49,941 nt of DNA, taken from positions 1 through 49,941 of the forward strand of contig NZ_JAGQBF010000022.1 in the NCBI RefSeq assembly GCF_024345495.1, in the 5' to 3' direction. The position numbers were made by a program, and so were the translations under genes. This document shows, in pieces, positions 14,195-42,574 of the stretch (the stretch's first letter is position 1; each line of letters begins with the position of its first letter). Source of the DNA: Synechococcus sp. RedBA-s. GTDB taxonomy: Bacteria; Cyanobacteriota; Cyanobacteriia; PCC-6307; Cyanobiaceae. The notes beneath the pieces were generated by a model. That model was given only the letters and a program-made list of their open reading frames with translations, was not told the origin of the DNA and did no database searches.

Positions 14195-14220
14195 CTTGAA
14201 ACCTGCTCCGCTGGAATGAT

Positions 14221-15072: not shown

Positions 15073-15083
15073 TCGAACCCTGG

Positions 15084-15113: not shown

Positions 15114-15168
15114 TAACCGATGAAAGCAGGGGCCTTTAGGTGGTGTTGCGATAAGGTGATGGATTGTT

Positions 15169-15186
15169 GCAACCGGTCTCGGTTGC
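15169..15186 (+). promoter_or_regulatory. hairpin in the typA leader
   Basis: GCAACCG (15169-15175), tetraloop GTCT, CGGTTGC (15180-15186) form a perfect 7-bp stem ending 29 bases before the typA ATG. It is too far from the start to hide the ribosome site directly; a stability or regulatory role is possible but unproven. Confidence 0.4.
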
Positions 15187-15215
15187 TGCCGACAAGATTA
15201 AGCGAGAGATCCCGT

Positions 15216-17021
15216 ATGAGCGCCAAGCAGTGCGCATCGATCCGCAACATCGCGATCATTGCCCACGTGGACCACGGCAAAACCACCCTGGTGGATGCCC
15301 TGCTTCAACAGTCCGGCATCTATCGCGAAGGCGAAGCCGTTCCCATCTGTGTTATGGACTCCAACGAACTGGAGCGTGAGCGCGGCATCACCATTCTCTC
15401 CAAGAACACGGCGGTCACCTACGCAGGCACCCGCATCAATATCGTTGACACCCCCGGCCACGCCGACTTCGGCGGTGAAGTGGAGCGCGTGCTGGGCATG
15501 GTGGATGGGGCGCTGCTGATCGTCGACGCCAACGAGGGGCCGATGCCCCAGACCCGTTTCGTGCTCAAGAAGGCCCTGGAGCAGGGTTTGCGGCCGATCG
15601 TCTTCGTCAACAAGATCGACCGGGCCCGCGTGGACCCCGAGCAGGCCGTCGACAAGGTGCTGGATCTCTTCCTCGAGCTGGGCGCCGACGACGACCAGTG
15701 CGACTTTCCCTATCTCTTCGGCAGTGGCATGGCCGGCTACGCCAAGCCCGACATGGCCACCGAGAGCGAGAACATGAAGCCGCTCTTCGACGCCATCCTG
15801 CGCCACGTGCCGCCTCCGGTGGGCGACCCCGAGAAGCCCCTGCAGATGCAGGTGACCACGCTCGATTACTCCGATTTCATCGGACGCATCATGATCGGCC
15901 GGGTGCACAACGGCACGATCAAGGCCGGCCAGAGCGCAGCGCTGATCCGCGATGACGGCACCATCAAGCGCGGCCGCATCAGCAAGCTGCTGGGCTTTGA
16001 AGGGCTGGCCCGGGTGGAGATCCCCGAGGCTCGCGCCGGTGACCTGGTGGCCGTGGCCGGTTTCGATGAGGTGAACATCGGCGAGACCATCGCCTGTCCC
16101 GATCACCCCGAAGCCCTGCCGCTGATCCGGGTGGATGAACCCACCCTGCAGATGACCTTCGTGGTCAACGACTCCCCCTTCGCCGGCAAGGAAGGCAAAT
16201 TTGTCACCAGCCGCCAGCTGCGTGATCGCCTGCAGAAGGAGCTCCTCACCAACGTGGCCCTGCGGGTGGAGGACACCGACTCTCCGGACCGCTTCGCCGT
16301 CAGCGGCCGCGGTGAGCTGCACCTCGGCATCCTGATCGAGACCATGCGCCGGGAAGGCTTCGAATTCCAGGTGTCGCAACCCCAGGTGATCTTCCGCACC
16401 ATCGATGGCACCCCCTGCGAACCGGTGGAGACCCTGGTGATGGATGTCCCCGAGGATGCCGTCGGCAGCTGCATCGAGAAGCTGGGCATGCGCAAGGGCG
16501 AGATGCAGAACATGGAAACCGGCAGTGATGGCCGCACGCAGCTCGAGTTCGTGGTGCCGGCCAGGGGCCTGATCGGCTTCCGGGGTGAGTTCGTGCGGGC
16601 CACCCGGGGCGAGGGGATCATGAGCCACTCCTTCTTCGAGTACCGCCCGATGCAGGGGGATTTCGAAGCGCGCCGCAATGGCGTGCTGATTGCCTACGAG
16701 GAGGGCACCGCCACCTTCTATGCCCTCAAGGGCGCCGAAGACCGCGGTCAGTTCTTCATCACCCCCGGCGCCAAGGTGTACAAGGGCATGATCGTCGGCG
16801 AGCACAACCGTCCGCCCGATCTCGAGCTCAACGTCTGCAAGGCCAAGCAGGTGACCAACATCCGCTCGGCCGGTGCTGAGGTGCTCGACACCCTGCAGTC
16901 GCCGATCCAGATGACCCTGGAGCGGGCCCTGGAGTACATCGGTCCCGACGAGATGCTGGAGGTGACGCCGGAATCGATCCGGCTGCGCAAGCTGCCGTCG
17001 AAGAAGCCCGCCAAGCGTTGA
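15216..17021 (+). CDS. typA: ribosome-associated translational GTPase TypA/BipA
   Basis: TypA/BipA binds ribosomes and is needed for growth under stress or cold in many bacteria. The G-domain motifs are clear: AHVDHGKTT (G1), the RERGITI switch, [16 protein letters not shown] (G3) and NKIDR (G4). The EF-G-like domains and the BipA-specific C-terminal region ([30 protein letters not shown]) follow. From ATG 15216 the protein is 601 aa, the family length. An extra 32 codons upstream are in frame but lie over the leader hairpin. The stop overlaps the start of the DUF309 gene. Confidence 0.96.
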
Positions 17022-17383
17022 TCGAGGCCCTTGAGGACGACCCCCGCTTCCGGCAGGCGGTCGTCCTTTTTAATGGCGGCCAGTGGTATGGCTGCCACGA
17101 CGGCCTTGAAGAGCTGTGGCATGAAACCCTGGGCCCGGATCGACCCGTACTCCAGGGGATTCTCCAGATCGCCGTGGCCCACCTCCACCTAGAGAGCGGC
17201 AACCGCAATGGCGCCACGGTGTTGCTGGGAGAAGGGTTGGGCCGTCTGGCCCACAGCGGTCCTGAGGCCCTCGGCCTTGACCTCGACCACCTGCGCCAGG
17301 CCAGCAGTGTCCGGTTGAGTGCGCTCCAGGCCGGCGCTGACCCGGCCGGACTGCCCCTTCCAGAGCTGCGGCCGCAGGCCTGA
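17018..17383 (+). CDS. DUF309 family protein
   Basis: 121 aa with the DUF309 signature: a helix containing FNGGQWYGCHDGLEELWHET followed by LQGILQIAVAHLHLESGNRNGA. Members are small helical proteins, found in cyanobacteria and plants, whose biochemical role is not established. The TTG start at 17018 overlaps the typA TGA, giving translational coupling. The conserved His/Glu pairs look like a possible metal site; that is inference. It lies upstream of the lpt genes and may be cotranscribed with them. Confidence 0.85.
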   Translation: MIEALEDDPRFRQAVVLFNGGQWYGCHDGLEELWHETLGPDRPVLQGILQIAVAHLHLESGNRNGATVLLGEGLGRLAHSGPEALGLDLDHLRQASSVRLSALQAGADPAGLPLPELRPQA

Positions 17384-17467
17384 GCAGTGGCTCTCAGGGG
17401 GGCAACCGGCAACCTGCCCGTAGATTGCCCACTGAAATTGGGTTTCAGATCCACCCTTACCGCTGAG

Positions 17468-18031
17468 ATGCCGAGCACTGTCGAGCTGAACCCCCTCCAG
17501 TCGTCGGGCCCCCTGCGCTGGCGACGTCCAAGGCTGCTGAGAGCAGCCCTCAGCGCCATGGTGCTGGCGTCAGCGGCCAGCGGCCACGCCCAGCCGATCC
17601 GGCCTGGTGAGCAGGTCGGTCCGGCGTTGGAGCAAGCACCAGCAGGGGCACCAGCAGCGGCGGCCCCGGCACCCACCGGCCAGGTCACGATTGAATCCGA
17701 CAGTCAGCAGGCTGACAACGTGACCGGGATCATCACCGCCACCGGCAATGTCCGGATCGTGTACCCCGATCAGCGGGTGGTGGCCACCTCCCGCCAGGCC
17801 CAGTACTTCACCCGCGAGGGGATGATCATCCTCAGCGGTGATGTGGATGTGGTCCAGGAGGACGGCAACCTGCTGAGGGCCGATCGGGTCACCTACCTGG
17901 TGGAGAGGGAGCGGGCCCTGGCCCAGCCCCTGGAGGGCCAGCAGGTGTTCAGCAAACTGCTGATTCAGACCACCCCCCGGGTTCAGCCGCCGGGTGCGCC
18001 CCTGCAGCCCCTCACCGCCCCGCCGCGATGA
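17468..18031 (+). CDS. lptA: LptA/OstA-like periplasmic lipopolysaccharide transport protein
   Basis: Expected to form part of the periplasmic bridge carrying LPS to the outer membrane. The 187-aa product has an N-terminal signal segment (LLRAALSAMVLASAASGHA) and a Pro/Ala-rich linker. It ends in an OstA beta-jellyroll domain with VTIESDSQQADNVTGIITATGNV, VVATSRQAQYF and DGNLLRADRVTYLVER. ATG 17468 is chosen since it places the signal peptide near the N-terminus. The stop overlaps the lptB start (ATGA), which supports the Lpt assignment. Confidence 0.85.
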   Translation: MPSTVELNPLQSSGPLRWRRPRLLRAALSAMVLASAASGHAQPIRPGEQVGPALEQAPAGAPAAAAPAPTGQVTIESDSQQADNVTGIITATGNVRIVYPDQRVVATSRQAQYFTREGMIILSGDVDVVQEDGNLLRADRVTYLVERERALAQPLEGQQVFSKLLIQTTPRVQPPGAPLQPLTAPPR

Positions 18032-18756
18032 GTCTCTCTCTGGAGAGCGTGAGCGTGAGCCTGGGCGGTCGCCCCCTGGTAAAGGAGGTGAGCCTGGAGC
18101 TGGAACCCGGAGAGGTGGTGGGCCTGCTGGGGCCCAACGGGGCTGGCAAGACCACCACCTTCAACCTGGTGACGGGTCTGCTCAGACCCGACAGGGGTCA
18201 GGTGCTGCTGGATGGACGCCGGGTCGAAGGCCTGCCGATGCCCAAGCGGGCACGACTGGGCATCGGCTACCTGCCCCAGGAGGCCAGTGTCTTTCGCCAG
18301 CTCACCGCCCGCGAGAACCTCCAGCTGGCCCTGCAACAGAGCGGCACCCCGCTGCGGGTGCGGCGTCAGCGCCTGGAGCAGCTGATCGAGGAGTTTCATC
18401 TCGGCAGGTTCCAGGACCGGCGGGGCTACCAGCTCTCGGGCGGTGAGCGGCGGCGCTGTGAGGTGGCGCGCGCCCTGGCGGTGGGCCGCGAGGGGCCGCG
18501 CTATCTGCTGCTGGATGAACCCTTCGCCGGCGTTGATCCCCTGGCGGTGGCTGATCTGCAGGCCCTGATCGGCAGCCTGCGCCAGCGGGGCATGGGCTTG
18601 CTGATCACCGACCACAACGTGCGCGAAACCCTGGCGATCACCGATCGGGCCTACATCCTCACCGAAGGCAGCATTCTGGCCTCGGGTCCCTCTTCGGAGG
18701 TGGCCAGTGACCCCCAGGTGCGGCGTCACTATCTGGGAGAGGGATTTCAACTGTGA
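18028..18756 (+). CDS. lptB: LPS export ABC transporter ATPase LptB
   Basis: Cytoplasmic ATPase of the LptB2FG complex that extracts LPS from the inner membrane. 242 aa with Walker A GPNGAGKTT, Q-loop YLPQEASVFRQL, signature LSGGERRRCEVARAL, Walker B YLLLDEPFAGVDP and H-loop TDHNVRETL, all typical of LptB rather than amino-acid importers. Coupled by 4-base overlaps to lptA upstream and the permease downstream. Confidence 0.95.
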   Translation: MSLSLESVSVSLGGRPLVKEVSLELEPGEVVGLLGPNGAGKTTTFNLVTGLLRPDRGQVLLDGRRVEGLPMPKRARLGIGYLPQEASVFRQLTARENLQLALQQSGTPLRVRRQRLEQLIEEFHLGRFQDRRGYQLSGGERRRCEVARALAVGREGPRYLLLDEPFAGVDPLAVADLQALIGSLRQRGMGLLITDHNVRETLAITDRAYILTEGSILASGPSSEVASDPQVRRHYLGEGFQL

Positions 18757-19961
18757 GCGCAACCACCAAGTCACAGGCCAGCCCGGCGGCGGTGCAACGG
18801 CTGCTGAGGCCGTTCACGCTCTCCTGGCAGCGGCTGCCCCTGATGGATCGCTGGCTCACCAACGAGCTCCTCGGTCCTCTGCTGTTCGGCGTTGCCGCCT
18901 TCACGGCGGTGTCGCTCTCGGTGGGGGTGGTTTTCGAGCTGGTGCGGCGGGTGGCCGAATCGGGGCTGCCGATGGTCACCGCCCTGCAGGTGTTGGGCCT
19001 GCGAATGCCCGGCTTCCTGGTGCTCTCCTTTCCGATGGCCACCTTGATGGCCACTCTTCTGGCCTACAGCACCCTCTCCAGCAACAGTGAGCTGATCGCC
19101 CTGCGCAGCGTGGGGGTGAGCACTTGGCGCATGGTGTTGCCGGCCCTGATCGTGGCCGTGCTGATGAGCCTGCTCACCTTCGTGTTCAACGACCTGATCG
19201 TTCCCAGCGCCAATCTGGAGGCCTCCAACACACTGAATCAGGCCCTGGGCAAGGCGATCGCGGCGGAGAAGGGCAGCAACATCATCTATTCGCGCTTCAG
19301 CCGTCGCCCCAGCAAGCTGGATGAAAGCGGCAGCGAACGCTACCTCTCCCAACTCTTCTATTCACGCCAATTCAAGGCTGGGGAAATGGAGGAGGTGACG
19401 GTGCTGGATTTCAGCCGTCCCACCGGCACCCAGATCCTCAAAGCCAAGAAGGGCATCTGGAACGAACAGGCGGGAATGTGGGAATTCCTTGATGGGCAGA
19501 TCGTGCTGGTGGGCGACAGCGAAACCACCACTTCAGCCAAGTTTGATCGCTATCTCTATCCACTCGACCAGGGCCCCCTGAAGCTGGCGGCCCTGCCCAA
19601 GGATGCGGCCAACATGTCGGTGTCGCAGGCCTTGCGGGCAGAAATTCTGCTGAGGGAAGCCGGCGATCAGAAGGAATCCAGGCGGTTGCGGGTGCGCATC
19701 CAGGAAAAATTCGCCTTCCCGGCCATCTGCCTGGTGTTCGGTTTGATCGGCAGCAGCCTCGGGGTCCGGCCCAATGCCCGCACCAGCCGCAGCCAGGGGT
19801 TCGGCATCAGCGTGCTGCTGATCTTCTCCTATTACCTGATGTCGTTCATCTTCAGCTCCCTGGGGGTGAAAGGCACCCTCGGGCCTCTGCTGGCGGCCTG
19901 GTCACCGGTGCTGATCGGCCTGCTGCTGGGCCTGCTGCTGTTGCGCCAGGCCAGCCGCTGA
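18753..19961 (+). CDS. LptF/LptG family permease (YjgP/YjgQ)
   Basis: Membrane component of the LPS exporter. 402 aa with three hydrophobic segments in the N-terminal 130 residues, a central periplasmic beta-rich domain (about 150-300), and three C-terminal segments ([19 protein letters not shown] and onward). This is the LptF/G layout. The GTG start overlaps the lptB TGA. Only one permease gene is present here; cyanobacteria may use a single permease as a homodimer or have another copy elsewhere. Confidence 0.9.
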
Positions 19962-30614: not shown

Positions 30615-30908
30615 TCAGGCTTCGGGGCTGAGGGTTTCCAGCTGGCGGCGCACGTCTTCGATCGCCCGATTCAGTTCGTTCACCTTGTGCTGCAGCTCGC
30701 GCTTGAGCAGGGGCCGCCGCTCGCCGTCGTCGCTGTCGCGGGAGCCCCCCTGCAGGCGCGAAAGGGTGAGGGTGCGGCGCTGACGCTGGGCCAGGCGGCG
30801 GCTCTCGGCCTCTGCCAGCAGCCACCAGGCCAGACCGGCAGCACCGATCACCGCTCCGGCGATGGCACTGGCCAGGATGGGACTGGCGGTGAATCCGCGT
30901 TCGGCCAT
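30615..30908 (-). CDS. small membrane protein with coiled-coil tail
   Basis: 97 aa: one N-terminal membrane segment (about residues 10-31, ILASAIAGAVIGAAGLAWWLL) followed by a basic stretch and a C-terminal heptad-like helix (LLKRELQHKVNELNRAIEDVRRQLETL). No family recognised. It lies between the GMC flavoprotein gene (36 bases upstream) and ilvD (50 bases downstream) on the same strand. Confidence 0.75.
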   Translation of the reverse strand: MAERGFTASPILASAIAGAVIGAAGLAWWLLAEAESRRLAQRQRRTLTLSRLQGGSRDSDDGERRPLLKRELQHKVNELNRAIEDVRRQLETLSPEA

Positions 30909-30944: not shown

Positions 30945-32447
30945 TTAGAACCGCTCCGCCACCCGCAGGGCATTGGCGATCACGGTGAGGCCGGGCGAGA
31001 CGATCGGGCAGCTGGGGAAGACGCTGGCATCGGCGATGGTCAGATTGGCCAGGCCGTGGACACGGCCGTCGCGGTCGACCACGGAGGTGGCTGGATCATC
31101 GCCCATGCGGCAGGTGCCGCAGGCGTGGCCGATCACCGCCAGGGGCGCCTCGCCGCGGGGATAGAAGGGGGCTGGGCGCACTTCGGGGGTGAGCGGATCG
31201 GCATCCACGGCCTTGAGCACCGAGAGCCAGCGGTAAACGAGCCGGTCGTGGGCTTCGAGGTTGTTGGCCAGATATTGGATGCTCAGCCGCTCACCGCGAA
31301 GCTCGATACGGTTCTCGGGGTCGGGCAGCACCGGACTCATGGCCCACCAGCAGATCGAGCGCACCGCCAGCTGCTGCAGGGCGGTGTTGGGCAGCAGCCG
31401 CGTCACCAGGGAGAGCACCGGCGGTGACTCGGCGAACTGGGCGTCCTGCAACACCCCGCCACCGGTTTCGATGTGGCCGAGCGGAAAGCTGACGTTCTGA
31501 TCGCCCCAGAGGTAATCGTTGACGCCGAGGCTGCGGGGGAAGCGGCCGCTGTGGGGTTCGCGGGCCAGCTGCAGGATCGCCGTGAGCTGGGGCTTCATCA
31601 GGTGGCGGCCCACCTGGTTGCTGCCATTGGCCAGGCCGTGGGGGTGGAGTGAGCTGCGGGAGCGCAGCAGCAGGGCCGGAGTGTTCACCGCACCGGCGGC
31701 CAACACCACCTGATCGCCCCGGAACAGCCAGCTCTGACCATCGATCTCGGCTTGCACCCCCTTCACCTCGCGGCCACTGGGATCCACATGCAGCCGGGTG
31801 ACGCGGGCGTTGCTGATCAGGCGGGTGCCGGGATGCTCCAGGGCCGGCTGCACCCCGAACAGTTCCGCGTCACCACTGGGATCCTCCGGCTGCTCCGACC
31901 AGCTCAGCGGCAGGTCGTAGGGATGGCGGCCCTGGCGCTGCAGGCCCTGGCGCAGCGGCTCGAAGATCGGATCCAGCGGCAGCGGCTCATAGGGATAGGG
32001 GCCGCTGCGCGGCGGCTGCTGCGGGTCCGTGCCGGCACGGCCATGGACGCGGTAAAGGGCCTCGGCACGGTCGTACCAGGGGGCGAGCTCGTCGTAGCTG
32101 AGCGGCCAGGCGGGGGCGACACCCTCCTGCAGGGGCAAGCCTTCGAACTCCCGCGGCCACATGCGCTCCAACACCCCGCCCCAGATCTTGGTGTTGCCGC
32201 CCAGGGCGTAAATCGTCTGGGGGGAGAAGGGATCGCCATCGGGGCCGAACCAGTCGTCGCCAGGGTGATAGCGGTCTTTTCGGAACAGATCGACGCTGGC
32301 CACGTTCTGATCGGCCAGGTCCATGACCCCGCCGCGCTCCAGCAGCAGCACCGAGCGCCCCTTGGCAGCCAGCGCTCCGGCCAGGCTGCCTCCGGCGGCG
32401 CCGGAGCCGATCACGATCACATCGTGGTGCTGGTCGTCGAGGATCAT
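30945..32447 (-). CDS. GMC-family FAD-dependent oxidoreductase
   Basis: Flavoprotein of the glucose-methanol-choline oxidoreductase family, expected to oxidise an alcohol, polyol or sugar. 500 aa. FAD motif DVIVIGSGAAGGSLAGAL and GRSVLLLERGG at the N-terminus; GGNTKIWGGVLERMWPREFEG; LAAGAVNTPALLLRS; and the C-terminal GHACGTCRMGDDPATSVVD with DASVFPSCPIVSPGLTVIANAL. The ATG overlaps the ctaE stop (ATGA), so it is translated together with the terminal oxidase and may feed electrons to it through quinone. That link is inferred from gene order. Substrate unknown; no signal peptide or haem c site is visible. Confidence 0.9.
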   Translation of the reverse strand: MILDDQHHDVIVIGSGAAGGSLAGALAAKGRSVLLLERGGVMDLADQNVASVDLFRKDRYHPGDDWFGPDGDPFSPQTIYALGGNTKIWGGVLERMWPREFEGLPLQEGVAPAWPLSYDELAPWYDRAEALYRVHGRAGTDPQQPPRSGPYPYEPLPLDPIFEPLRQGLQRQGRHPYDLPLSWSEQPEDPSGDAELFGVQPALEHPGTRLISNARVTRLHVDPSGREVKGVQAEIDGQSWLFRGDQVVLAAGAVNTPALLLRSRSSLHPHGLANGSNQVGRHLMKPQLTAILQLAREPHSGRFPRSLGVNDYLWGDQNVSFPLGHIETGGGVLQDAQFAESPPVLSLVTRLLPNTALQQLAVRSICWWAMSPVLPDPENRIELRGERLSIQYLANNLEAHDRLVYRWLSVLKAVDADPLTPEVRPAPFYPRGEAPLAVIGHACGTCRMGDDPATSVVDRDGRVHGLANLTIADASVFPSCPIVSPGLTVIANALRVAERF

Positions 32448-33049
32448 GACCAGGCGTAGAGGAGAAGGAAAAGCATCACCCAGATCACATCCACAAAGTG
32501 CCAGAACAGGGAGGTGGCGATCACCCCCTGCTCACCAGCGGCGTAGTTGGCCGGGCGGAAGGAGCGCTGCAGCATCAGCGCCATCAGCAGGATGCCGCTG
32601 AGCACATGCAGGCCGTGGAAGCCGGTGAGCAGGTAGAAGCAACTGCCGAAACTGCCGCTGGTGATCCCGAAAGGCAGCGAACGCCATTCGATCGCCTGGC
32701 CATAGAGGAACACCGCCCCCATTGCCATGCTCAGCAGCCAGAAGGCGCGGAAGCCCCAGAGCTGGCCCCTGGAGAGGCAGCGCTCAGCCAGGGCCACCGT
32801 GCCGCTGCTGGAGACCAGCACCAGCGTGTAGAGCAGGGGGCTGCGCCACTCCAGCCCCTCCACCCCTGGCGGCAGCCACTGCAGGGCCGAGAGCTTCAGC
32901 ACCGCATAGCCCGTGAAGAACGCCAGAAAGATGACGCTCTCAGAGCAGAGAAAGATGATGAAGCCGGTGAGGCTGTGGTTGGCGTGAGCCGCTTGATGAC
33001 CCTGGCCCTGGGGGGTCGGGGGGGCATCGAGTGGAGGGCTGATGGTCAT
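32444..33049 (-). CDS. ctaE: haem-copper oxidase subunit III
   Basis: Subunit III of a cytochrome c oxidase-type terminal oxidase, 201 aa with five membrane segments: GFIIFLCSESVIFLAFFTGYAVL, the LLYTLVLVSSSGTVAL region, GFRAFWLLSMAMGAVFLYGQA, the FHGLHVLSGILLMALML helix and a C-terminal FWHFVDVIWVMLFLLLYAW. Three bases separate it from ctaD, and the stop overlaps the flavoprotein start. It belongs to the alternative-type (ARTO-like) set because of its subunit II. Confidence 0.93.
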   Translation of the reverse strand: MTISPPLDAPPTPQGQGHQAAHANHSLTGFIIFLCSESVIFLAFFTGYAVLKLSALQWLPPGVEGLEWRSPLLYTLVLVSSSGTVALAERCLSRGQLWGFRAFWLLSMAMGAVFLYGQAIEWRSLPFGITSGSFGSCFYLLTGFHGLHVLSGILLMALMLQRSFRPANYAAGEQGVIATSLFWHFVDVIWVMLFLLLYAWS

Positions 33050-33052: not shown

Positions 33053-34744
33053 TCAGGCCTGCAGAAGGGCGCGCTCGATTTCATCCTGGTGCTCCACCAG
33101 CGGCCGGCCGGTGCCATAGCCGTAGGGGCCGCTGATCACCGTGGGCACGTGTTCCTCGAAGTTTTCAGCCGGCGGTGGTGAGGGCAGCAGCCACTCCAGG
33201 CCGATGGCATTCCAGGGATTGGCCGGTGATTTCGGCCCCCGTACCCAGGAGCTCACCAGGTTGAGCAGAAAGGGAATGATCGAGACCCCCAGGAGGAAGG
33301 CACCGAGGCTGGCGATCACATTCCAGAAGGCGAATTCCGGGTCGTAGGACGACACCCGGCGGGGCATGCCCATCAGGCCGAGGGGATGCATCGGGAAGAA
33401 GTTGAGGTTGGTGCCCACAAAGGTGAGCAGGAAATGAAGTTTGCCCAGACCCTCATAATACATGTGTCCGGTGAATTTAGGGAACCAGTGATAGATGGCG
33501 GCGTAGACACCCATGGTGGCCGCACCATAGATCACGTAGTGGAAATGGCCTACCACGAAATAGGTGTTGTTGACGTGGATATCCACAGGCACCGTGGCCA
33601 GCATGATGCCGGTGACGCCTGCGAACACAAAATTGAACAGGCCACCGAGGGCGAACAGCATCGCCGTGTTTAGGCGTAACTTCCCTCCCCACAGCGTCGC
33701 CAGCCAGGCGAACACCTTTATGCCGGTGGGCACCGCGATCAGCATGGTGGTGACCATGAAGACATCGCGCATCCACTGGGGAACGCCGCTGGGGAACATG
33801 TGGTGCACCCAGACGATCAGGCTCAGCCCCACGATCACCAGGGAAGCCCCGGCCACGAAGGGATAGCCGAATAGGGGCTTGCGCGCGTACACCGGAAACA
33901 GCTCGGAGAACACCCCGAACACCGGCAGGATGATCACATACACGGCGGGGTGGGAATAGAACCAGAAGAAGTGCTGATAGAGGACCGGATCACCGCCGCC
34001 CTCAGGCCGGTAAAAGGAGGTGCCCACCGCCAGGTCGAACAGCAGCATCACGGCACCACCGGTGAGGGCAGGGAGGCCGATCAGCTGAATCGTCTGGGCC
34101 GAGAGGGCCGTCCAGCAGAAAATCGGCATGCGGCCCAGGGTCATGCCAGGGGCGCGCATGCGCAGGATTGTTGTCACGAAGTTGACGGCACCCATGATCG
34201 AGGAGATGCCCGAGAGCGCCACCGCCAGGATCCAGAGGGCTTCGCCGTTGATCAGGTGCCCGAGTGGATTCTGCAGGCTCACCGGCGGGTACGACCACCA
34301 GCCGGATGAGGCCGGCCCTCCCGGCACCAGGAAACTGGCCATCAGGATCACCCCAAACACCGGCACCATCCAGAAGGCGGCGGCATTGAGTTTGGGGAAG
34401 GCCATGTCGGGGGCGCCGATCATGCAGGGGATCAGGAGGTTGTTGAGCCCGTTGAGCACCGGAAAGATGAACAGGAAGAGCATGATCGTCCCGTGCATCG
34501 TGTAGAGGCCGTTGTACACGGTGCGATCCACCAGATCCGCCTCCGGTGTGATCAGCTCACCGCGCATGATCATCGCCAGCAGACCGCCCACCAGCAGAAA
34601 CAAGAGGGCAGTGACGATGTACTGGATGCCGATCACCTTGGCGTCGGTGTTGAAGCTGAAGAAGCGCTTCCAGTTGTCCGGGGCACCGGGCACCGGATGG
34701 GGCGCCTTGAGGATGCGTGAGTCAACGCCGGCGGTGGAGGTCAT
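33053..34744 (-). CDS. ctaD: haem-copper oxidase subunit I, A2 type
   Basis: Catalytic subunit that reduces oxygen to water and pumps protons. 563 aa, twelve membrane segments. Haem and CuB ligands are complete: H84 (YTMHGTIM), H265 and Y269 in YSHPAVY, H314-H315 (VWVHHMF), H400 and H402 (VVGHFHYV). The usual D-channel glutamate of HPEVY is Ala, and the preceding YS is the signature of the A2 subfamily. Its first 12 bases equal those of ctaC (ATGACCTCCACC). ATG 34744 is preferred over upstream codons that run into ctaC. Confidence 0.95.
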   Translation of the reverse strand: MTSTAGVDSRILKAPHPVPGAPDNWKRFFSFNTDAKVIGIQYIVTALLFLLVGGLLAMIMRGELITPEADLVDRTVYNGLYTMHGTIMLFLFIFPVLNGLNNLLIPCMIGAPDMAFPKLNAAAFWMVPVFGVILMASFLVPGGPASSGWWSYPPVSLQNPLGHLINGEALWILAVALSGISSIMGAVNFVTTILRMRAPGMTLGRMPIFCWTALSAQTIQLIGLPALTGGAVMLLFDLAVGTSFYRPEGGGDPVLYQHFFWFYSHPAVYVIILPVFGVFSELFPVYARKPLFGYPFVAGASLVIVGLSLIVWVHHMFPSGVPQWMRDVFMVTTMLIAVPTGIKVFAWLATLWGGKLRLNTAMLFALGGLFNFVFAGVTGIMLATVPVDIHVNNTYFVVGHFHYVIYGAATMGVYAAIYHWFPKFTGHMYYEGLGKLHFLLTFVGTNLNFFPMHPLGLMGMPRRVSSYDPEFAFWNVIASLGAFLLGVSIIPFLLNLVSSWVRGPKSPANPWNAIGLEWLLPSPPPAENFEEHVPTVISGPYGYGTGRPLVEHQDEIERALLQA

Positions 34745-34748: not shown

Positions 34749-35672
34749 TCAGCCGTCGTGGGGAAGGGTGTTGGAGCCGGGCACATTCACCAGCGGCGGC
34801 GGGGCGGGGGCGATGGTGGCGTAGCCGCTGCCGCGCTCGCCGCTGAGCTGCTGGGCGTATTCGCGTGAGGCCTCGCTGAGGCCGGGCTGCAGCGGCAGCC
34901 GGGAGGCGCGCCGCAGCCAGTCCTGGTAGGCCTCCTCGCTCTCCACCACCACATCGGCCTGGTTGGCGGCGAACCAGGTGCCGCTGTATTCCGAGTCGCG
35001 CAGGCGGTAGCGGCCTTCGCGGGTGGGGGTGATGAAGAGGGTGATCGAGCGGCCTGGGATCACCTGCTGCTTGAGCCGAAAGGCCGGCACATAGAAACCG
35101 TGGATCACGTCTTTGCTCTCCAGCTGCAGGCCGAGGCGGCGATCGATGGGCATGTGCAGCTCCGTGGAAGACACCCCGGCCACCGGGTAGCGGAACTCCC
35201 ACGACCACTGGCGGGCGATCACCTGCACCTCACCCCCTGGCACGGAGGCGCCGGCGGCGGAGCTGGCTGGGGCATGGGAGTGGTCCATGGGGCCGATAAG
35301 ACCGATCTCGCGGTTCACCTGGATCGTGTAGGCGGCAATGCCCATCACCAGCACCAGGGGGATCACGGTCCAGATGATCTCCAGGGTGGTGTTGCCCTCG
35401 ATCGGCTCCGCATCGCTGATGTCGTACTTCTCAGCGCGGTTGAACAGCATCACCCAGACCATCACCGAGACCACCCCCACGAACACGAAGGTGGCAACGG
35501 CCGTTTCGAATCCGAAGAGGCCATCCACCAGCGGAGCCGCCGACGAGGCCGACACCGGCAACCAGCGGGGCACCTGGGCCCCCATCCAAAGGCTGAGCAG
35601 GGTGAGCAGCACCAGCCAGAGGGCCAGGCCGATCAGTCGGGGCCAAAAAAAGCGCTGCGGGGTGGAGGTCAT
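34749..35672 (-). CDS. ctaC: oxidase subunit II lacking the CuA site (ARTO type)
   Basis: 307 aa with two N-terminal membrane hairpin segments (about 12-30 and 58-77; a third hydrophobic stretch at 98-114) and a periplasmic cupredoxin domain. Normal subunit II binds CuA with two Cys, two His, a Met and a Glu carbonyl. Here H191 (VIHGFYVP) and E228 remain, but the Cys positions are D226 and S230, the second His is F234, and the Met is N237. Loss of CuA is known for the cyanobacterial alternative respiratory terminal oxidase, thought to take electrons from quinol. ATG 35672 overlaps the DUF2231 gene stop. Confidence 0.93.
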   Translation of the reverse strand: MTSTPQRFFWPRLIGLALWLVLLTLLSLWMGAQVPRWLPVSASSAAPLVDGLFGFETAVATFVFVGVVSVMVWVMLFNRAEKYDISDAEPIEGNTTLEIIWTVIPLVLVMGIAAYTIQVNREIGLIGPMDHSHAPASSAAGASVPGGEVQVIARQWSWEFRYPVAGVSSTELHMPIDRRLGLQLESKDVIHGFYVPAFRLKQQVIPGRSITLFITPTREGRYRLRDSEYSGTWFAANQADVVVESEEAYQDWLRRASRLPLQPGLSEASREYAQQLSGERGSGYATIAPAPPPLVNVPGSNTLPHDG

Positions 35673-36244
35673 GGCAGGGCCTCGCGCAGGCTGGCACCTT
35701 CGCCCAGCAGCTGGCTGGCCGTGACATGCACGCCGAACTCCACCCCCAGCTGGGCGCCGAGGGTGCCGTGCCAGGCCATCAACGCAAACACCAACAGCCC
35801 CACCAGCAGGTAGCTCCACTGCACCTGGCGACCCATCTCGCGGCGCCAGCGGAAGCGCTGAAAGCCACGCCAGACGGTCATCAGCACGATCGCGAAGAGC
35901 AGGGCCACGCCCACGGCCCCATGCCAGAGCATGGTGGCGGTGCTGCCCATGGCGAAGCTGCTGGTGATCCCGGGAAGCGGATCAGCCAGCTGCATCTCCA
36001 CAAAACCCGCCGCCACGGTGAAGAAGCTGATCAGGCAGCAGGCCAGCAGGTTGTACCAACCCACATCGTGCAGACCGGAGCGGGTCACCGGCAGGGCCAG
36101 GAAGCGGAACAGCCGCCTCTCGAAGGGAAAGAGCGCTCCGGCGATATCGAAGGCGATGGCGATCACGAACAGGCCGATCGTGAGATGGACCAGGTTCGGG
36201 TGGATCGGCAGCCGGTAGGGCAGATCATTGGCTCCGAGCTCCAT
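35669..36244 (-). CDS. DUF2231 membrane protein (second of two)
   Basis: 191 aa with four hydrophobic segments and the DUF2231 opening motif, LPIHPNLVHLTIGLFVIAIAFD, where HPxxVH histidines could bind a metal or haem. Later histidines (MLWHGAVGVALLF, LMAWHGTLGA) lie in membrane segments too. Its ATG overlaps the preceding DUF2231 stop, and its stop overlaps the ctaC start (both ATGA). The tight coupling to the oxidase suggests a part in its assembly or electron input; function is not established. Confidence 0.88.
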   Translation of the reverse strand: MELGANDLPYRLPIHPNLVHLTIGLFVIAIAFDIAGALFPFERRLFRFLALPVTRSGLHDVGWYNLLACCLISFFTVAAGFVEMQLADPLPGITSSFAMGSTATMLWHGAVGVALLFAIVLMTVWRGFQRFRWRREMGRQVQWSYLLVGLLVFALMAWHGTLGAQLGVEFGVHVTASQLLGEGASLREALP

Positions 36245-36741
36245 CACACCAGCCCCGCGCGCATCGCCTCCACCACCTTGACGGTGTGGAGGCCATAGAC
36301 CCAGATCAGCTGGTTGCCGAGCAGCACCTGCACCACCACCAGGGCGCTAAGCAGGCTGCCCGCCCCGAGAAAGGCCAGGGGCAGCTGCAGCGGGTCTCGG
36401 CTGCGGATCACGTAGCGCCAGGCGGTGAGCACCGAGAGCACCCCGGCCAGCACCCAGCCGAGGGTGCTGTGCAGGTTGAGGATCTCGCGGGAGGCGCCGT
36501 AGGGATTGGCCAGCCCCGCCTCCACCTGGCCGAAGATGATCGCAATGAAGATCGCCACCGTGGCAAAGAGCAGATTCCAGAAGCTCACCTCATAGAGCGA
36601 GGGCTTGCCCGCTAGGCGACCGATCACGTCGAAGACGAACGCGATCAGGGCCATCGCGATCACGAAATGAACCACGATCGGGTGAATCGTGTCGATCCAG
36701 GGAAGGTTGCGGTCGTTGAGGGGTGGAAGAAGCTCGAGCAT
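36244..36741 (-). CDS. DUF2231 membrane protein (first of two)
   Basis: 165 aa with four membrane segments; opens with a short soluble lead then DTIHPIVVHFVIAMALIAFVFD, the DUF2231 HPxxVHF motif, and has further histidines in NLHSTLGWVLAG and YGLHTVKVVEAM. ATG 36741 is the first plausible start; longer readings are antisense-like low-complexity sequence. It heads the coupled run DUF2231, DUF2231, ctaC, ctaD, ctaE, GMC. Confidence 0.88.
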   Translation of the reverse strand: MLELLPPLNDRNLPWIDTIHPIVVHFVIAMALIAFVFDVIGRLAGKPSLYEVSFWNLLFATVAIFIAIIFGQVEAGLANPYGASREILNLHSTLGWVLAGVLSVLTAWRYVIRSRDPLQLPLAFLGAGSLLSALVVVQVLLGNQLIWVYGLHTVKVVEAMRAGLV

Positions 36742-37008: not shown

Positions 37009-38835
37009 TCACTCGCCCGCCAGGGCCGCCTCCGCCCGCCGCGGGTCCACCGCCCCCAGGGTTCCGCCGCCGGGGAGGGCTTCGAGCGAGTGGGCCGCCC
37101 CCATGGCCGGAGCCAGCCGCCAGCGGTGGCCCATCGCCACCAGCAGCTGGAGGGTGTCGAGGCTGAAGCCCTGCTCTACAGCCAGCTCATCCGGCCAGTG
37201 CTGGCTGTGAATCCGGCTGGCGGCCACCGCCGAGGCCAGGTTGAGACCGTGCTCCAGGCGATTGAGCAACACTTGCAGCACCGTGGTGATGATCCGGCTG
37301 CCGCCGGGGCTGCCGCTGGCCAGCAGCGGTCCGCCGGCGGGGGTGAGCACCAGGGTGGGCGCCATCGAGCTCAGCGGTTGCTTGCCCGCTGCGATCGCAT
37401 TGGCCTTTCCCTGCACCAGGCCGAAGGCGTTGGCGGCCCCCGGAAGGGCCGTGAAATCGTCCATCTCGTTGTTGAGCAGGAAGCCGGCCCCCGGCACGCT
37501 CACACCGTTGCCATAGGGGAAGTTGAGGGTGGTGGTGGTGGCCACCATCGTGCCGTCGCGGTCGATCACCGAGAGGTGGGTGGTGTTGGGGCTTTCGGCG
37601 GCGCGGGCCCCGGGGGGGGCATCGAGTTCCCGCGCCGGCCGGTGGCGCCCGGCCTGGATCGTGCGGCGCAGCTCATCGGCATAGCCCTGGCTCAGCAACC
37701 GCTCCAGGGGCATGGCCACAAAGCGTGGATCGCCCAGCCAGCGGTTGCGGTCGCGGAAGGCCAGGTTCATCGCCTCAGCCATCGGATGCAGGGCGGCGGC
37801 GCTGTTGAGGCCCAGGGCCGCCAGATCAAAGCCCTCCAGGATGTTGAGCAGCTGGATCAGGCTGACACCGCCGGAGCTGGGCGGGGGCATGGCGATCACG
37901 GGATGGCCACGCCAGTCCCCCAGCAGGGGCGGCTGAAGCCGGGCCCGGTAGCCGCTCAGATCGTCAGCGCTGATCAGGCCTCCCCTGCGGCGCATCAGGG
38001 CCACCAGCGCCTCGGCCACCGGCCCCTGGTAGAAGCCCTGCTCGCCCTGGGCGGCGATGCGGCGCAGGGTGGCGGCCAGCTCGGGCTGACGCAGGCGCTC
38101 GCCCGGCCGGTAGGGACGCCCACCGGGGCGCAGGAACAGCCGCGTTGATTCGGGATCAGCCCGCAACAGGGGGGCCGCGGCCTCGAGGGAATCGGCCAGG
38201 GCCTTGCTCACCACCACCCCCTGCTCCGCCAGGCGGATCGAGGGGGCGATCACCCGAGCGAGGCTCAGTCGGCCGTAGTGGCGGTGGGCCAGCAGCAGCC
38301 CCGCCACCGTGCCGGGCACCCCGCTGCTGAGCAGGCTGCGGGTGGCCTTGCGGCGATCCACCGCCCCGGAGGCATCCAGCAGCAGATCGGGCCCGGCCGC
38401 CAGGGGAGCGCTCTCGCGGAAGTTGACCGTGACGGCCCGGCCCTGACCCACCCGCCGCTCCTGGGGCCCCAGCGGCCGCCCCCGACTGAGCCGCTCCGGC
38501 TGCCAGAGCACCAGGAAACCGCCGCCACCGAGGTTCCCCGCCTGGGGATGGCTGACCGCCAGGGCGAAGGAGGTGGCCACCGCCGCATCGACGGCATTGC
38601 CCCCATCCCGCAGCACATCACGGCCGGCCCGGGAGGCCTCCAGCTCCTGGCTGGCCACCATCCCCCCCGCCGACCACTGCGGCTGGAAGCGCTGGCTGGC
38701 CTCCTGGAGCACATTGGCCGCCGCTGAGAGCGGCAGGAGTGTGAACGCGGTGAAGGACGCCAATGCCAGCAGGGGCCCTTCAGCCACCATCAGCCGCCTG
38801 AGCCGCCGGCGCCGGCGGCGTTCAGAGGCCGCCAT
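37009..38835 (-). CDS. ggt: gamma-glutamyltransferase
   Basis: Cleaves or transfers the gamma-glutamyl group of glutathione and related peptides. 608 aa precursor with a basic N-terminus and signal segment (GPLLALASFTAFTLLPLSAAA), so probably periplasmic. Motifs include DVLRDGGNAVDAAVATSFALAV, NLGGGGFLVLW, the substrate Arg in VNFRESAP, and the autocleavage NTTHLSVIDRDG with the nucleophilic Thr near residue 417, then GSPGGSRI. The gene start overlaps the end of the 5-oxoprolinase gene by 14 bases, a pathway pair. Confidence 0.95.
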   Translation of the reverse strand: MAASERRRRRRLRRLMVAEGPLLALASFTAFTLLPLSAAANVLQEASQRFQPQWSAGGMVASQELEASRAGRDVLRDGGNAVDAAVATSFALAVSHPQAGNLGGGGFLVLWQPERLSRGRPLGPQERRVGQGRAVTVNFRESAPLAAGPDLLLDASGAVDRRKATRSLLSSGVPGTVAGLLLAHRHYGRLSLARVIAPSIRLAEQGVVVSKALADSLEAAAPLLRADPESTRLFLRPGGRPYRPGERLRQPELAATLRRIAAQGEQGFYQGPVAEALVALMRRRGGLISADDLSGYRARLQPPLLGDWRGHPVIAMPPPSSGGVSLIQLLNILEGFDLAALGLNSAAALHPMAEAMNLAFRDRNRWLGDPRFVAMPLERLLSQGYADELRRTIQAGRHRPARELDAPPGARAAESPNTTHLSVIDRDGTMVATTTTLNFPYGNGVSVPGAGFLLNNEMDDFTALPGAANAFGLVQGKANAIAAGKQPLSSMAPTLVLTPAGGPLLASGSPGGSRIITTVLQVLLNRLEHGLNLASAVAASRIHSQHWPDELAVEQGFSLDTLQLLVAMGHRWRLAPAMGAAHSLEALPGGGTLGAVDPRRAEAALAGE

Positions 38836-41800
38836 AGCCTCCGCCTCCAGGGGTTTCGATCAGGAGCACATCTCCGGCGGCCAGCTCCAGCTGCGCCGAT
38901 CCGCCCAGTTCAAGTTCGCGGCCATCGCGGTGGATCAGCCGATTGCGGCCCAAGGCGCCCGCGCTACCGCCGGCCAGCCCGAAGGGAGCCACCTGGCGGG
39001 AACTGGAGAGGAGGGAGGCGGTCATCGGCTCCAGGGCGCGGATCCGCCGCACCACCCCATCCCCGCCCCGCCAGCGGCCCGCGCCGCCGCTGCCGCGCCG
39101 TAGAGCAAACTCCTCTAGCCGCACCGGAAAGCGCTGCTCGAGGATTTCGGGGTCGGTGAGGCGGGAGTTGGTCATGTGGCTCTGCACCGCCGAAGCACCG
39201 GCAAAACCCCGGCCATCGAGGCCGCGGCCAGCGCCGCAGCCGCCGCAGATCGTCTCGTAGTACTGATAGTGCTCGTTGCCGAAGCTGAGGTTGTTCATGG
39301 TGCCCTGGGCGGCGGCCATCACCCCGAGGGCGGCGAAGAGGGCATTGGCGATCGCCTGTGACGTTTCCACATTGCCGGCCACCACCGCGGCCGTGGGGCC
39401 GGGGCGCAGCAGGCAGCCCAGTGGCACCACCAGCTCCAGCGGCCGGAAACAGCCGGCATTGAGCGGCACCGACTCCCCCACCAGGCAGCGGAATACGTAG
39501 AGCACCACCGCCCGGGTGATCGCCAGGGGGGCATTGCGGTTGCCGGGGTCCTGGGGGGAGGTGCCGCTGAAATCGATCAGCGCCCGGCGGGAGGCCCGAT
39601 CGATGCTCACCGCCACCTGGATGCGCAGGCCGCCATCGAGGGGAAGGCTGAAGGCGCCCGGCTCGAGCCGATCGATCACCCGCCGCACCGCTTCGGCGCC
39701 GTTGTCCTGCACATGGGCCATGAAGGCGCTCAGCCGTTGGACGCCCTCCCGCCGGCCCAGCTCCAGCAGCAGCTGGGCCCCCAGCTGATTGGCCGCCAGC
39801 TGGGCCTGAAGGTCGGCCAGCAGCTGCTCCGGATTGCGCACGGGATGGGGACCGGCCTCCAGCCGCCGCCTCCAGTCGTCGGCCAGCAGCACGCCATCGC
39901 GCAGCAGGGGCACGTTGTCGAGCAGGAGGCCCTCCTCGGCCAGGCAGCGGCTGAAGGGGGGCATCGAGCCAGGAGTGATGCCGCCCACATCGGCATGGTG
40001 ACCGCGGCAGGCCACGAACCCATCAGGTTGGGGCGCCGGCCCGGAGCTGTCCGTTGGATCCGCTCCCTCGCGGGGCACGAACATCGGGGTGATCAAGGTG
40101 AGGTCGGGGAGGTGGGTGCCGCCGTTGGCGGGGTCGTTGGAGACGATCGCGTCGCCGGGCCTCAGGGCTGGGCGCTCCCCCCGGCGCACCGCCGCCAGCA
40201 GGCCGGCCACGCTGGCCCCCATCGAGCCCAGGTGCACGGGGATGTGGGGGGCGTTGGCCACCAGCTCCCCCGCTTGATCGAAGAGGGCACAGGAGAAATC
40301 GAGACGCTCGCGGATGTTCACCGAGCGGGCGCTCTGCTGCAGGCGCACCCCCATCTGCTCGGCGATGGCGCTGAAGCGGTGGTTGAACAGCTCCAGGCTC
40401 ACCGGATCCACGGTGGTCCCCTGCTGCGCTGATGGCTCAGCTGGCTGCAGCCCAGCTGAGCCATGACTGAGCAGCAGGCAGCCATCGGCCTGACACTCCG
40501 CCCTCCAGCCCGGGGGCAGCCAGATGGTGCCGGTGGCCTCCACCAGCAGCGCTGGGCCGTCAAGCCGCTGGTCCGTCGCCAGCTGCTCGCGGCGGAGCAG
40601 TGGACCGGATCGCCAGGCGCCGTCGCAGTGGAGCGGGATCAGTCGTTGCTCGCCAGCTGCAGCGGCTCCATCCAGCCGGCGTACTACGCCGATCTCAGCG
40701 GCGGCAGCCTCAACCTCGCCGGCATCGGCAGCCGCCACCACCTCCACCAGCAGCCACTCCACCAGGAGCTCGGCGTTGTCGGGGCTGTGGCCGAAGCGAC
40801 GGTGATGGTCTCGCTCGAACTGGCTCCGCAGGGCCCCGGCCTCCTGCAGCTCCAGGGGCAGGCTGAGCTCGCTGGCCGCCAGCCGCACGCCCACACTCAC
40901 CTCGGCGCGGGCCTCGGCGCCCAGGTCCCGCTGACCCCGCTCCAGCAGGGCAGAGGCCTGGCGTTGCAACTGCTCCACCAGCTGCTGATCCAGGGGACGA
41001 CGCACCGGCTCCTCCAGCAACAGGCGCTGGTCGGCCAGGCCGATGCCGTAGGCCGAGAACACCCCCGCCAGGGGGTGGAGCAGCACCCGGGCCATGCCAA
41101 GCCGCTCAGCCAGGGCACAGGCGTGCTGGCCGCCGGCCCCGCCGAAGCAAACGAGGGTGGCGCCACGCAGATCGTGGCCGCGCTGGATCGAGATGCGCCG
41201 GATCGCCTCCGCCATCCGCTCAATGGCAATGGCCAGGGCCCCTTCCGCGAGGGCCTCCGGCGTGGTGGAGGCCCCACTGGCCTGGGACACCTGCTGTGCC
41301 AGCTGCTGGAAGCCCTGCCGCACCACCAGAGGATCGGGGCCCTGATCTCGATCGGGGCCAAAGACCGCCGGAAACGCCTCGGGCTGGAGGCGGCCCAGCA
41401 GCAGGTTGGCGTCGGTGATCGTGAGTGGGCCGCCGCGCCGGTAGCAGGCCGGGCCGGGATCGGCCCCTGCGGAGGCGGGCCCCACCTGCAGCCGCTGGCC
41501 ATCGAAGTGCACAAGCGACCCCCCGCCGGCCGCCACGGTATGGATCGGCAGCATCTCCGCCTGCAGGGTGAGGCCGGCGATCTCGGTGTCGTGGCGGCGC
41601 CCCCAGCCCGGGGCCGGACCGCCGGCCTCCCCATGGAACACATCGGTGGAGGTGCCGCCCATGTCGAAGCCCACGATCGGTGTGCCCCTCCCCCCCGCCA
41701 GGCGCACGGCCGCCACCATGCCGCCGGCCGGCCCGGAGAGGATCGTGTCCTTGGCCTTGAGCAGCTCCGGGGCCACCAGGCCGCCGCTCGACTGCATCAC

Positions 41801-42574
41801 CCGCAGGCGGCAGTGGGGCCCGAGCTCGGCGATCAGCTGATCCAGATAGGCCTTCAGGGCCGGTGCCACGGTGGCCTCCACCACAGCCGTCTGGGCCCGG
41901 GGCACCAGCCGCGGCCGCCGGCCCAGCTGGTGGGAGAGCACCACCTGATCAAACCCGAACGGCGCCAGCCACTGGCCCAACTGACATTCGTGGCGGGGAT
42001 GGCGAGCGCTGTGCAGCAGGGCCACCGCGCAACTACTGAAACCATCGCGGCGGGCCTGGTGCAGAGCCTGCTCCAGCGCCCCGTCGAGCCGCAGCGGCGT
42101 GAGCTCACAGCCATCGGCCGCCAGGCGCCCCTCCACCTCCAGCACCCGCCGGTAGCGCGGGGCCGGCCGCTCCACCTGCAGGGCAAACAGATCAGGCCGG
42201 TGCTGGTCGCCGATCCAGGCGGCATCGGCAAAGCCGCAGCTGATCAACAGCAGGGTGGGGGCACCGCGATCCTCCAGCAGGGCATTGGTGGCCACGGTGG
42301 TGCCGATGCGCACCTCCCGCACCGCGCCGGCGGGAATGGGCTGAGCGGGCCCCAGCCCCAGCAGCTCACGCATGGCCGCCACCGCGGGATCACCAGGCAG
42401 ACCAGCAGGCAAATCACCGGAGCGCCCGGGCTGCTGCGAGAGCACCTTGCGGACCACGAGTTGGCCGCTGGGGGAGCGGCCCACCAGATCGGTGAAGGTG
42501 CCGCCCCGATCGATCCAGAAGCTCCAGCCTGGCTGGGGGCCCGGCTGGGGAGTCTCGCTCTGCGCTGCGCTCAC
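38822..42574 (-). CDS. 5-oxoprolinase (HyuA-HyuB fusion)
   Basis: ATP-dependent 5-oxo-L-proline hydrolase giving glutamate, the enzyme that recycles 5-oxoproline from the gamma-glutamyl cycle. 1250 aa. The HyuA-like half (about 1-690) shows FWIDRGGTFTDLVGR, GTTVATNALLEDRG, SGPAGGMVAAVRLA, and IVGFDMGGTSTDV. The HyuB-like half begins near residue 720 (VDPVSLELFNHRFSAIAEQMG). It contains NDPANGGTHLPDLTLITPMF and ends in a Gly-rich TPGGGGYGG. The fused form is typical of OPLAH; the GGT neighbour favours 5-oxoprolinase over hydantoinase. Confidence 0.9.
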   Translation of the reverse strand: MSAAQSETPQPGPQPGWSFWIDRGGTFTDLVGRSPSGQLVVRKVLSQQPGRSGDLPAGLPGDPAVAAMRELLGLGPAQPIPAGAVREVRIGTTVATNALLEDRGAPTLLLISCGFADAAWIGDQHRPDLFALQVERPAPRYRRVLEVEGRLAADGCELTPLRLDGALEQALHQARRDGFSSCAVALLHSARHPRHECQLGQWLAPFGFDQVVLSHQLGRRPRLVPRAQTAVVEATVAPALKAYLDQLIAELGPHCRLRVMQSSGGLVAPELLKAKDTILSGPAGGMVAAVRLAGGRGTPIVGFDMGGTSTDVFHGEAGGPAPGWGRRHDTEIAGLTLQAEMLPIHTVAAGGGSLVHFDGQRLQVGPASAGADPGPACYRRGGPLTITDANLLLGRLQPEAFPAVFGPDRDQGPDPLVVRQGFQQLAQQVSQASGASTTPEALAEGALAIAIERMAEAIRRISIQRGHDLRGATLVCFGGAGGQHACALAERLGMARVLLHPLAGVFSAYGIGLADQRLLLEEPVRRPLDQQLVEQLQRQASALLERGQRDLGAEARAEVSVGVRLAASELSLPLELQEAGALRSQFERDHHRRFGHSPDNAELLVEWLLVEVVAAADAGEVEAAAAEIGVVRRLDGAAAAGEQRLIPLHCDGAWRSGPLLRREQLATDQRLDGPALLVEATGTIWLPPGWRAECQADGCLLLSHGSAGLQPAEPSAQQGTTVDPVSLELFNHRFSAIAEQMGVRLQQSARSVNIRERLDFSCALFDQAGELVANAPHIPVHLGSMGASVAGLLAAVRRGERPALRPGDAIVSNDPANGGTHLPDLTLITPMFVPREGADPTDSSGPAPQPDGFVACRGHHADVGGITPGSMPPFSRCLAEEGLLLDNVPLLRDGVLLADDWRRRLEAGPHPVRNPEQLLADLQAQLAANQLGAQLLLELGRREGVQRLSAFMAHVQDNGAEAVRRVIDRLEPGAFSLPLDGGLRIQVAVSIDRASRRALIDFSGTSPQDPGNRNAPLAITRAVVLYVFRCLVGESVPLNAGCFRPLELVVPLGCLLRPGPTAAVVAGNVETSQAIANALFAALGVMAAAQGTMNNLSFGNEHYQYYETICGGCGAGRGLDGRGFAGASAVQSHMTNSRLTDPEILEQRFPVRLEEFALRRGSGGAGRWRGGDGVVRRIRALEPMTASLLSSSRQVAPFGLAGGSAGALGRNRLIHRDGRELELGGSAQLELAAGDVLLIETPGGGGYGGL

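Follow-up and report, generated by a model that had tools for sequence, protein, structure and literature searches.

The gene for a GMC-fold FAD protein, here called GMC-A, forms a conserved unit with the operon of ARTO, and this association is not due to chance. ARTO is a respiratory oxidase that occurs in abundant phototrophs and is still poorly understood. GMC-A was found in 142 of the 142 ARTO genomes in a sample of 300 genomes of one cyanobacterial family, which suggests that work on ARTO as an oxidase of three subunits may have missed part of the system. The residues of GMC-A at the positions usually occupied by the GMC catalytic pair are altered, which makes its role testable. The explanation we favor, with a little less than even confidence, is that GMC-A is an ARTO-dedicated FAD protein that arose from sugar-dehydrogenase–like ancestors and acts as a redox or assembly partner of the oxidase.

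In the window, the whole stretch of 49,941 nucleotides of Synechococcus sp. RedBA-s that was analyzed (contig NZ_JAGQBF010000022.1), six genes on the minus strand follow one another in the order DUF2231-DUF2231-ctaC-ctaD-ctaE-GMC, and Pfam assigns all six of them (two DUF2231, COX2, COX1, COX3, and GMC_oxred_N/C). The chain begins with two membrane protein genes, DUF2231a (36244..36741 with the ATG at 36741, ORF open to 36897) and DUF2231b (35669..36244), which overlap by 1 nt when counted from the ATG and by 4 nt from an upstream GTG. DUF2231b overlaps ctaC (34749..35672; ARTO subunit II, COX2) by 4 nt, after which a 4-nt gap leads to ctaD (33053..34744; subunit I, COX1) and a 3-nt gap to ctaE (32444..33049; subunit III, COX3, from the ORF list and Pfam). 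The ctaD product, 563 aa from the ATG at 34744 in an ORF open to 34786, was identified by a Pfam COX1 score of 516.5 bits and by the haem-copper ligand motifs HPAVY, HHMF, and GHFH. The GMC-A gene (30945..32447, 500 aa), assigned from the ORF list, Pfam, and alignments, scored 33.6 bits for GMC_oxred_N (cut-off 23) and 76.6 bits for GMC_oxred_C (cut-off 24.6). Its ATG (32447-32445) begins within the ctaE stop codon TGA (32446-32444), giving an overlap of 4 nt. A sequence-only reading of this DNA had described both the six-gene chain and the start of the 500-aa GMC gene in the ctaE stop, and both descriptions hold; its term "translationally fused" was loose wording, as the genes overlap by 4 nt and are not fused. 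No signal peptide was seen by eye in GMC-A, so the protein is probably cytoplasmic.

The protein encoded by ctaC contains no cysteine and hence lacks a CuA site, which would make the oxidase one of the quinol type (ARTO or Qox), as the sequence-only reading had proposed. Quinol-type oxidases without CuA are called ARTO or Qox in the literature, according to the available part of PMC6616624, where the Anabaena type-1 ARTO, or Qox, operon is given as alr2729-alr2730-coxB3-coxA3-coxC3. As far as the accessible accounts extend, cyanobacterial type-1 ARTOs (that of Anabaena and ctaC2-D2-E2 of picocyanobacteria) likewise have three subunits with a subunit II without CuA, and the Anabaena ARTO is also preceded by two genes (PMC6616624); on the basis of the gene order in the window, alr2729 and alr2730 are probably DUF2231 genes. 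The window's operon differs from the described ARTO by its sixth gene, GMC-A. The available excerpts of PMC6616624 and PMC10119275 name the oxidase genes and the two upstream genes of Anabaena, and no GMC. A targeted literature search, limited to text outside figures and supplements, found no paper joining a GMC protein or choline dehydrogenase with a cyanobacterial terminal oxidase. The available portions of the ARTO, PCC 7002, and GMC literature mention no GMC gene beside ARTO, although Fig. 7C of PMC10119275, which covers the operon region, could list one, and the accessible part of a paper on pan-genome modules held nothing on ARTO.

GMC-A and the ARTO genes are surrounded in the window by an ssl2009-like gene, ilvD, and ggt. 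The ssl2009-family–like small protein (30615..30908, minus strand; 36 bits, below the cut-off of 58) is encoded 36 nt 3' of GMC-A and is a local neighbor outside the conserved unit. The gamma-glutamyltranspeptidase gene (ggt) next upstream of the ARTO operon is overlapped by a 1250-aa ORF at 37009-42574, which by eye resembles a hydantoinase/5-oxoprolinase fusion; several related loci likewise have ggt 5' of ARTO. Besides the window's ctaD, this genome harbors a second COX1 gene, located on contig C25. Its one other GMC protein, encoded on contig C6, is only distantly similar (46.9 bits, with which the Pfam model agrees). No protein resembling the paralogue GMC-B was seen in this genome.

In the family sample of 300 genomes, GMC-A was called at E 1e-100 and the ARTO ctaC at E 1e-55. 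GMC-A was present in 147 genomes and ARTO-type ctaC in 142, all of them within the 147, so that no ARTO genome without GMC-A was seen among the 142. The two genes form one conserved unit, as the sequence-only reading had suspected. In 137 of the 142 genomes GMC-A lies 2.1-3.2 kb downstream of ctaC on the same strand; two of the remaining genomes show distances of 4.7 and 6.5 kb, and in the other three the genes are split between contigs. Five family genomes have GMC-A and no ctaC match. Three of these (G373, G482, and G536) show ctaD and ctaE beside GMC-A at a contig edge, the ctaC of G505 is split into two pieces, and in G375 the contig is cut inside the gene. ARTO genes are thus visible in 146 of the 147 GMC-A genomes, the contig of the last one being cut, and the GMC gene does not occur as often apart from the oxidase as with it.

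A phylum sample of 292 genomes was searched with GMC and ctaC; 14 of its 32 GMC-A genomes recur in the family sample. Some GMC protein was detected in 50 genomes at E 1e-20, and by our own cut of full length and at least 46% identity 32 of these carry GMC-A, the rest being paralogues and one short match. ARTO-type ctaC, called from a single-piece match of at least 190 bits, was present in 69 genomes; G101, where ctaC matched in two pieces, stands outside the 69 though ARTO is present there. All 32 GMC-A genomes have ARTO. GMC-A follows ctaC on the same strand at 2.1-3.2 kb in 30 of them and at 5.2 kb in G255; the ctaC of G195 is located on a different contig, with ctaD-ctaE directly 5' of GMC-A. 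The oxidase does not generally need GMC-A, because 37 of the 69 phylum ARTO genomes lack it, three of which (G125, G167, and G203) carry the paralogue GMC-C. Both DUF2231 genes were found in 87 of 91 ARTO loci, and contig ends account for three of the four misses; the pair is therefore a nearly constant component of cyanobacterial ARTO loci, while GMC-A was added in some lineages. A ctaD tree was built from 56 rows (30 GMC-A loci, 3 with GMC-C, and 23 without, leaving out the incomplete L205 and L211 and rows under 450 aa), and on it the presence of GMC-A needs four changes, at least three of them forced. G282, which is without GMC-A, is sister to G193, which has it, and has likely lost the gene. 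The mirror-tree correlation (r = 0.88, 58 loci) carries little weight, since it mostly reflects shared species history.

The conserved feature is the gene order rather than the 4-nt overlap of ctaE and GMC-A, a local trait present in 11 of 61 loci. No more than 20 nt separate the two genes in 29 of the 61 loci, and no more than 150 nt in 52, counts in which L185, with two copies of the unit, was entered as a miss. The complete six-gene order is found in five of five loci from genomes of about 1.6-2.0 Mb (g2, g4), each of which also encodes one additional GMC protein elsewhere; their size suggests Prochlorococcus or a close relative. Kilobases lie between ctaE and GMC-A in G480, G504, and G255, yet GMC-A is still downstream. 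In G255, the intervening genes are cydA and cydB on the same strand (L156, 9711-12317), forming a cluster of two quinol oxidases; GMC-A is thus joined to a second quinol oxidase there. On a 2.6-Mb contig of G528 (L182, 8496-9966), the ARTO operon is intact but the adjacent GMC-A gene is divided between two frames, perhaps a loss in progress or a sequencing error. In L185 of G498 (3132-6245 and 14559-19885), the ARTO-GMC unit occurs a second time in a partly eroded state, with DUF2231 pieces, a ctaD remnant, ctaE, and a GMC-A whose match covers residues 1-476.

GMC enzymes employ a histidine and an asparagine or second histidine near the flavin to take the proton and position the alcohol. The available text on pyranose oxidase names a His with a second His or Asn as the catalytic pair (PMC11650716), and that on MftG names an active-site His (PMC11778925). 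In the alignment with FAD-glucose dehydrogenase and fructose dehydrogenase, position 441 of GMC-A faces the His and position 484 faces the Asn; the window's protein has His at 441 and, in place of the usual Asn of these dehydrogenases, Ser at 484. The spacing of 43 residues equals that of H1147 and N1190 in fructose dehydrogenase, for which PDB titles name the variants N1146A, H1147A, and N1190A, and we read H1147 and N1190 as the catalytic residues of that enzyme.

Among 61 full-length GMC-A proteins, many of them closely related, the His/Asn pair is present in none. Position 441 holds Tyr in 21, His in 15 (the window's own protein included), Asn in 12, Phe in 8, Ser in 3, and Gly or Val in the two others, so that the His is missing in 46, and position 484 holds Gly in 34, Ser in 22, and Pro in 5, never Asn or His. 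Both His and Asn are retained in all 14 paralogues (10 of 10 GMC-B and 4 of 4 GMC-C) and in the five outside loci chosen for a first comparison. A wider outside set, comprising 64 of 67 non-cyanobacterial loci after omission of three ORFs under 450 aa, showed His/Asn in 51, His/Phe in 10, His/Thr in 2, and His/Gln in 1. The His of these outside relatives is not independent evidence, because the search pattern HACGTCRM contains it. Some of the 13 relatives without Asn or His in the 484 column reflect alignment shifts and ten share an apparently real Phe, so the absence of Asn alone is no proof of inactivity. Judged from these alignments, GMC-A is set apart among the proteins compared by drift at both positions. 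The ten outside GMC proteins with Phe aligned to the second catalytic residue (L043, L048, L050, L053, L057, L070, L071, L073, L076, and L078) carry the motif GHHACGTCRMG and make up another group with an unusual catalytic site.

Other parts of GMC-A are strongly conserved. The glycines of the FAD motif GxGxxG (Gly14, Gly16, and Gly19) are present in 61 of 61 proteins and Glu37, the acidic residue that follows the second strand, in 60, Cys446 and Asp473 are fixed in all 61, and the motif NNxEAHDRLxYRW is nearly fixed. Within this motif, His400 is found in 61 of 61 GMC-A proteins and is replaced by Ala, Ser, or Gly in the 14 paralogues, as seen by eye. For four close pairs, dN/dS was 0.10-0.14 for GMC-A, 0.12-0.19 for ctaC, 0.08-0.16 for ctaE, and 0.01-0.03 for ctaD. 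Given this ratio and the fixed FAD motifs, the changed residues of GMC-A are not a sign of decay, and the gene is under purifying selection. The motifs also suggest that GMC-A binds FAD. On its domains and residues, we file GMC-A as a GMC homolog that is not a canonical GMC catalyst. An AlphaFold model of GMC-A built with 23 sequences reached a pTM of 0.67 and was poor over residues 283-443 (mean pLDDT 58), so the Foldseek matches confirm the GMC fold only. In a GMC tree, which excludes paralogue copies found later, one branch with support of 100/100 splits the cyanobacterial GMC-A from GMC-B and GMC-C. The root is unsafe because the outside branches are 0.46-3.64 long, and under the root as drawn GMC-A is not one clade. 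A single loss of the His/Asn pair would be the simplest reading of these sequences.

The closest solved relatives of GMC-A, matched over nearly the full length, are the FAD-glucose dehydrogenase of Burkholderia cepacia (6a2u) and the fructose dehydrogenase of Gluconobacter (7w2j). The cysteine-rich stretch of these two enzymes, which we take to be Fe-S ligands, faces a stretch free of cysteine in GMC-A. Neither a gamma subunit nor a cytochrome c subunit was found among the neighbors of GMC-A in the window. The best partial NCBIfam match was to MftG (TIGR03970), at 81.8 bits, far below the equivalog cut-off of 387.45. MftG is a mycobacterial GMC flavoenzyme that, according to the available part of PMC11778925, delivers electrons taken from mycofactocinol into the respiratory chain; it resembles GMC-A in being a GMC flavoprotein tied by its neighborhood to one redox system, and it feeds respiration. 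However, MftG, unlike most GMC-A proteins, retains the active-site His, and its link is to a cofactor pathway rather than an oxidase. Fatty acid photodecarboxylase, a GMC protein with a chemistry other than alcohol oxidation, provides a precedent for re-use of the fold (accessible parts of PMC11664916 and PMC12448124), whereas GMC-A shows no evidence of photochemistry.

Sugar-related genes accompany GMC-A and its paralogues in some genomes. Downstream of GMC-A in L142 come, in this order, a gene for a GH63/MGH1-like glycosidase, GMC-B, and a group of DoxX, glyoxalase, SMP-30/gluconolactonase, cupin, and SDR genes. This cluster spans 10920-19070, and parts of it were observed in L172, L173, L175, and L201. 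Other Cyanobium-type loci show the L142-type cluster wholly or in part, with the glycosidase directly after GMC-A. Three of the four GMC-C loci contain a second, more divergent ARTO, whose ctaE is 0.5-8.3 kb away from GMC-C (on the opposite strand in L172), while L174 has no ARTO; SMP-30, DoxX, and SDR genes again accompany GMC-C; in L172 a glycosidase gene is directly upstream of the GMC-C–associated ARTO. A sugar-to-lactone route near ARTO is plausible, but it belongs to the intact paralogues. No SMP-30 family match was obtained in the window's genome (the control was positive in 8 of 14 genomes) and no glycosidase match in a search run without a control. These sugar genes are also absent from the five small-genome loci, as far as the loci themselves extend.

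With the Asn changed in all GMC-A proteins compared and the His in most, GMC-A is less likely than not to be an alcohol or sugar dehydrogenase of the ordinary kind. In the explanation we favor, GMC-A would derive from an FAD-dependent sugar dehydrogenase ancestry with its FAD-binding motifs retained, and would serve as a peripheral ARTO accessory protein on the cytoplasmic side, in contact with ARTO or its DUF2231 partners and presumably co-transcribed with them. Its FAD may pass electrons between some carrier and plastoquinone or the oxidase, or GMC-A may instead assist ARTO assembly or regulation. Counting against this proposal are the His441 of the window's protein, the 13 of 64 outside relatives without Asn or His at 484, the 37 of 69 ARTO genomes without GMC-A, the four changes that the ctaD tree requires for GMC-A presence, the poor model over residues 283-443, and the broken GMC-A of G528. 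The sequence-only reading had envisaged a dehydrogenase-oxidase unit, a chain running from a substrate to oxygen. In terms of the present data, GMC-A would still be a dehydrogenase, with an altered site, and would reduce plastoquinone for reoxidation by ARTO. The conserved unit stands, but the ordinary dehydrogenase is weakened by the 0 of 61 proteins with Asn or His at 484 and the 46 of 61 without His441, and also by the presence of GMC-A in the window's genome without SMP-30 or glycosidase matches and by the small-genome loci that lack the sugar genes. We nevertheless regard a dehydrogenase as a possible, if doubtful, role. GMC domains and FAD motifs are retained, the nearest solved relatives are FAD-glucose and fructose dehydrogenases, and the 13 of 64 outside GMC proteins that likewise have neither Asn nor His in the 484 column, the 15 proteins with His441, and the fixed His400 all favor it; a new catalytic role could have fallen to His400, or other residues might take over. 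The glycosidase gene directly 3' of GMC-A in Cyanobium-type loci and the gluconolactonase, glycosidase, and SDR genes with which paralogues near ARTO sit in some genomes point in the same direction; the scheme fits better for the intact GMC-B and GMC-C beside gluconolactonase and glycosidase genes.

GMC-A might also be a pure pseudo-enzyme with a structural, assembly, or regulatory role for ARTO, its FAD being structural only or absent. The drift of 441 among seven residues and the Gly, Ser, or Pro at 484, next to a nearly fixed NNxEAHDRLxYRW, would agree with this, but the FAD-binding glycines and the acidic residue are as conserved as in the catalytically intact paralogues, and we hold such a role to be decidedly improbable. 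Finally, the 37 ARTO genomes of the phylum without GMC-A could suggest a passenger kept in the operon by history, with no functional link to the oxidase. ARTO genes in 146 of 147 family GMC-A genomes, none of 142 ARTO genomes without GMC-A, the retention of the gene in small genomes, and its downstream position despite kilobases of separation in G480, G504, and G255 make that very hard to believe. The wider counts of outside relatives slightly lowered our confidence in the ARTO-dedicated partner, made the dehydrogenase somewhat more credible, and took a little from a further reading in which ARTO is a six-component complex.

This last reading, which we consider unlikely, would apply to a large cyanobacterial group including picocyanobacteria and genomes of Prochlorococcus size, with a catalytically repurposed GMC-A as a soluble FAD subunit and the DUF2231 pair, through its conserved membrane histidines, as haem or metal carriers. 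GMC-A would then be a GMC superfamily member dedicated to an oxidase, to our knowledge the only one. If the complex had six components, ARTO would exchange electrons with a partner other than plastoquinol, for example in Fe(III) reduction. The available part of PMC10119275 links ARTO to iron reduction and to low-iron Prochlorococcus, and it cites a report of ARTO-dependent Fe(III) reduction for Synechocystis; a link of GMC-A to this activity is speculation.

The DUF2231 proteins are rich in conserved histidines. DUF2231a shows His at 20, 25, and 91 in 67 of 67 sequences and at 152 in 66, and DUF2231b, with residues numbered from the GTG at 36247, shows His at 16, 21, 109, and 174 in 67 of 67 and at 160 in 65. 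The pair was not found within the 20 kb examined around the GMC-C type ARTO of G060 (L175). The literature naming DUF2231 consisted, in its accessible part, of a database of cysteines in DUF proteins only. AlphaFold predicted four helices for DUF2231a (pLDDT 79.6), and the helix ends and His positions in this model would place the conserved histidines near one side of the membrane. Fold searches gave a best E of 0.2, for a cytochrome bd, with others at 0.5 and up, and structure comparison gave Z of 11.6-15.4 with many four-helix bundles and no clear winner. Designed bundles, haem proteins, and oxidase subunit III occupied the top rows of the fold searches, and DUF2231 is possibly a haem or metal protein, a candidate that we put forward as a lead only.
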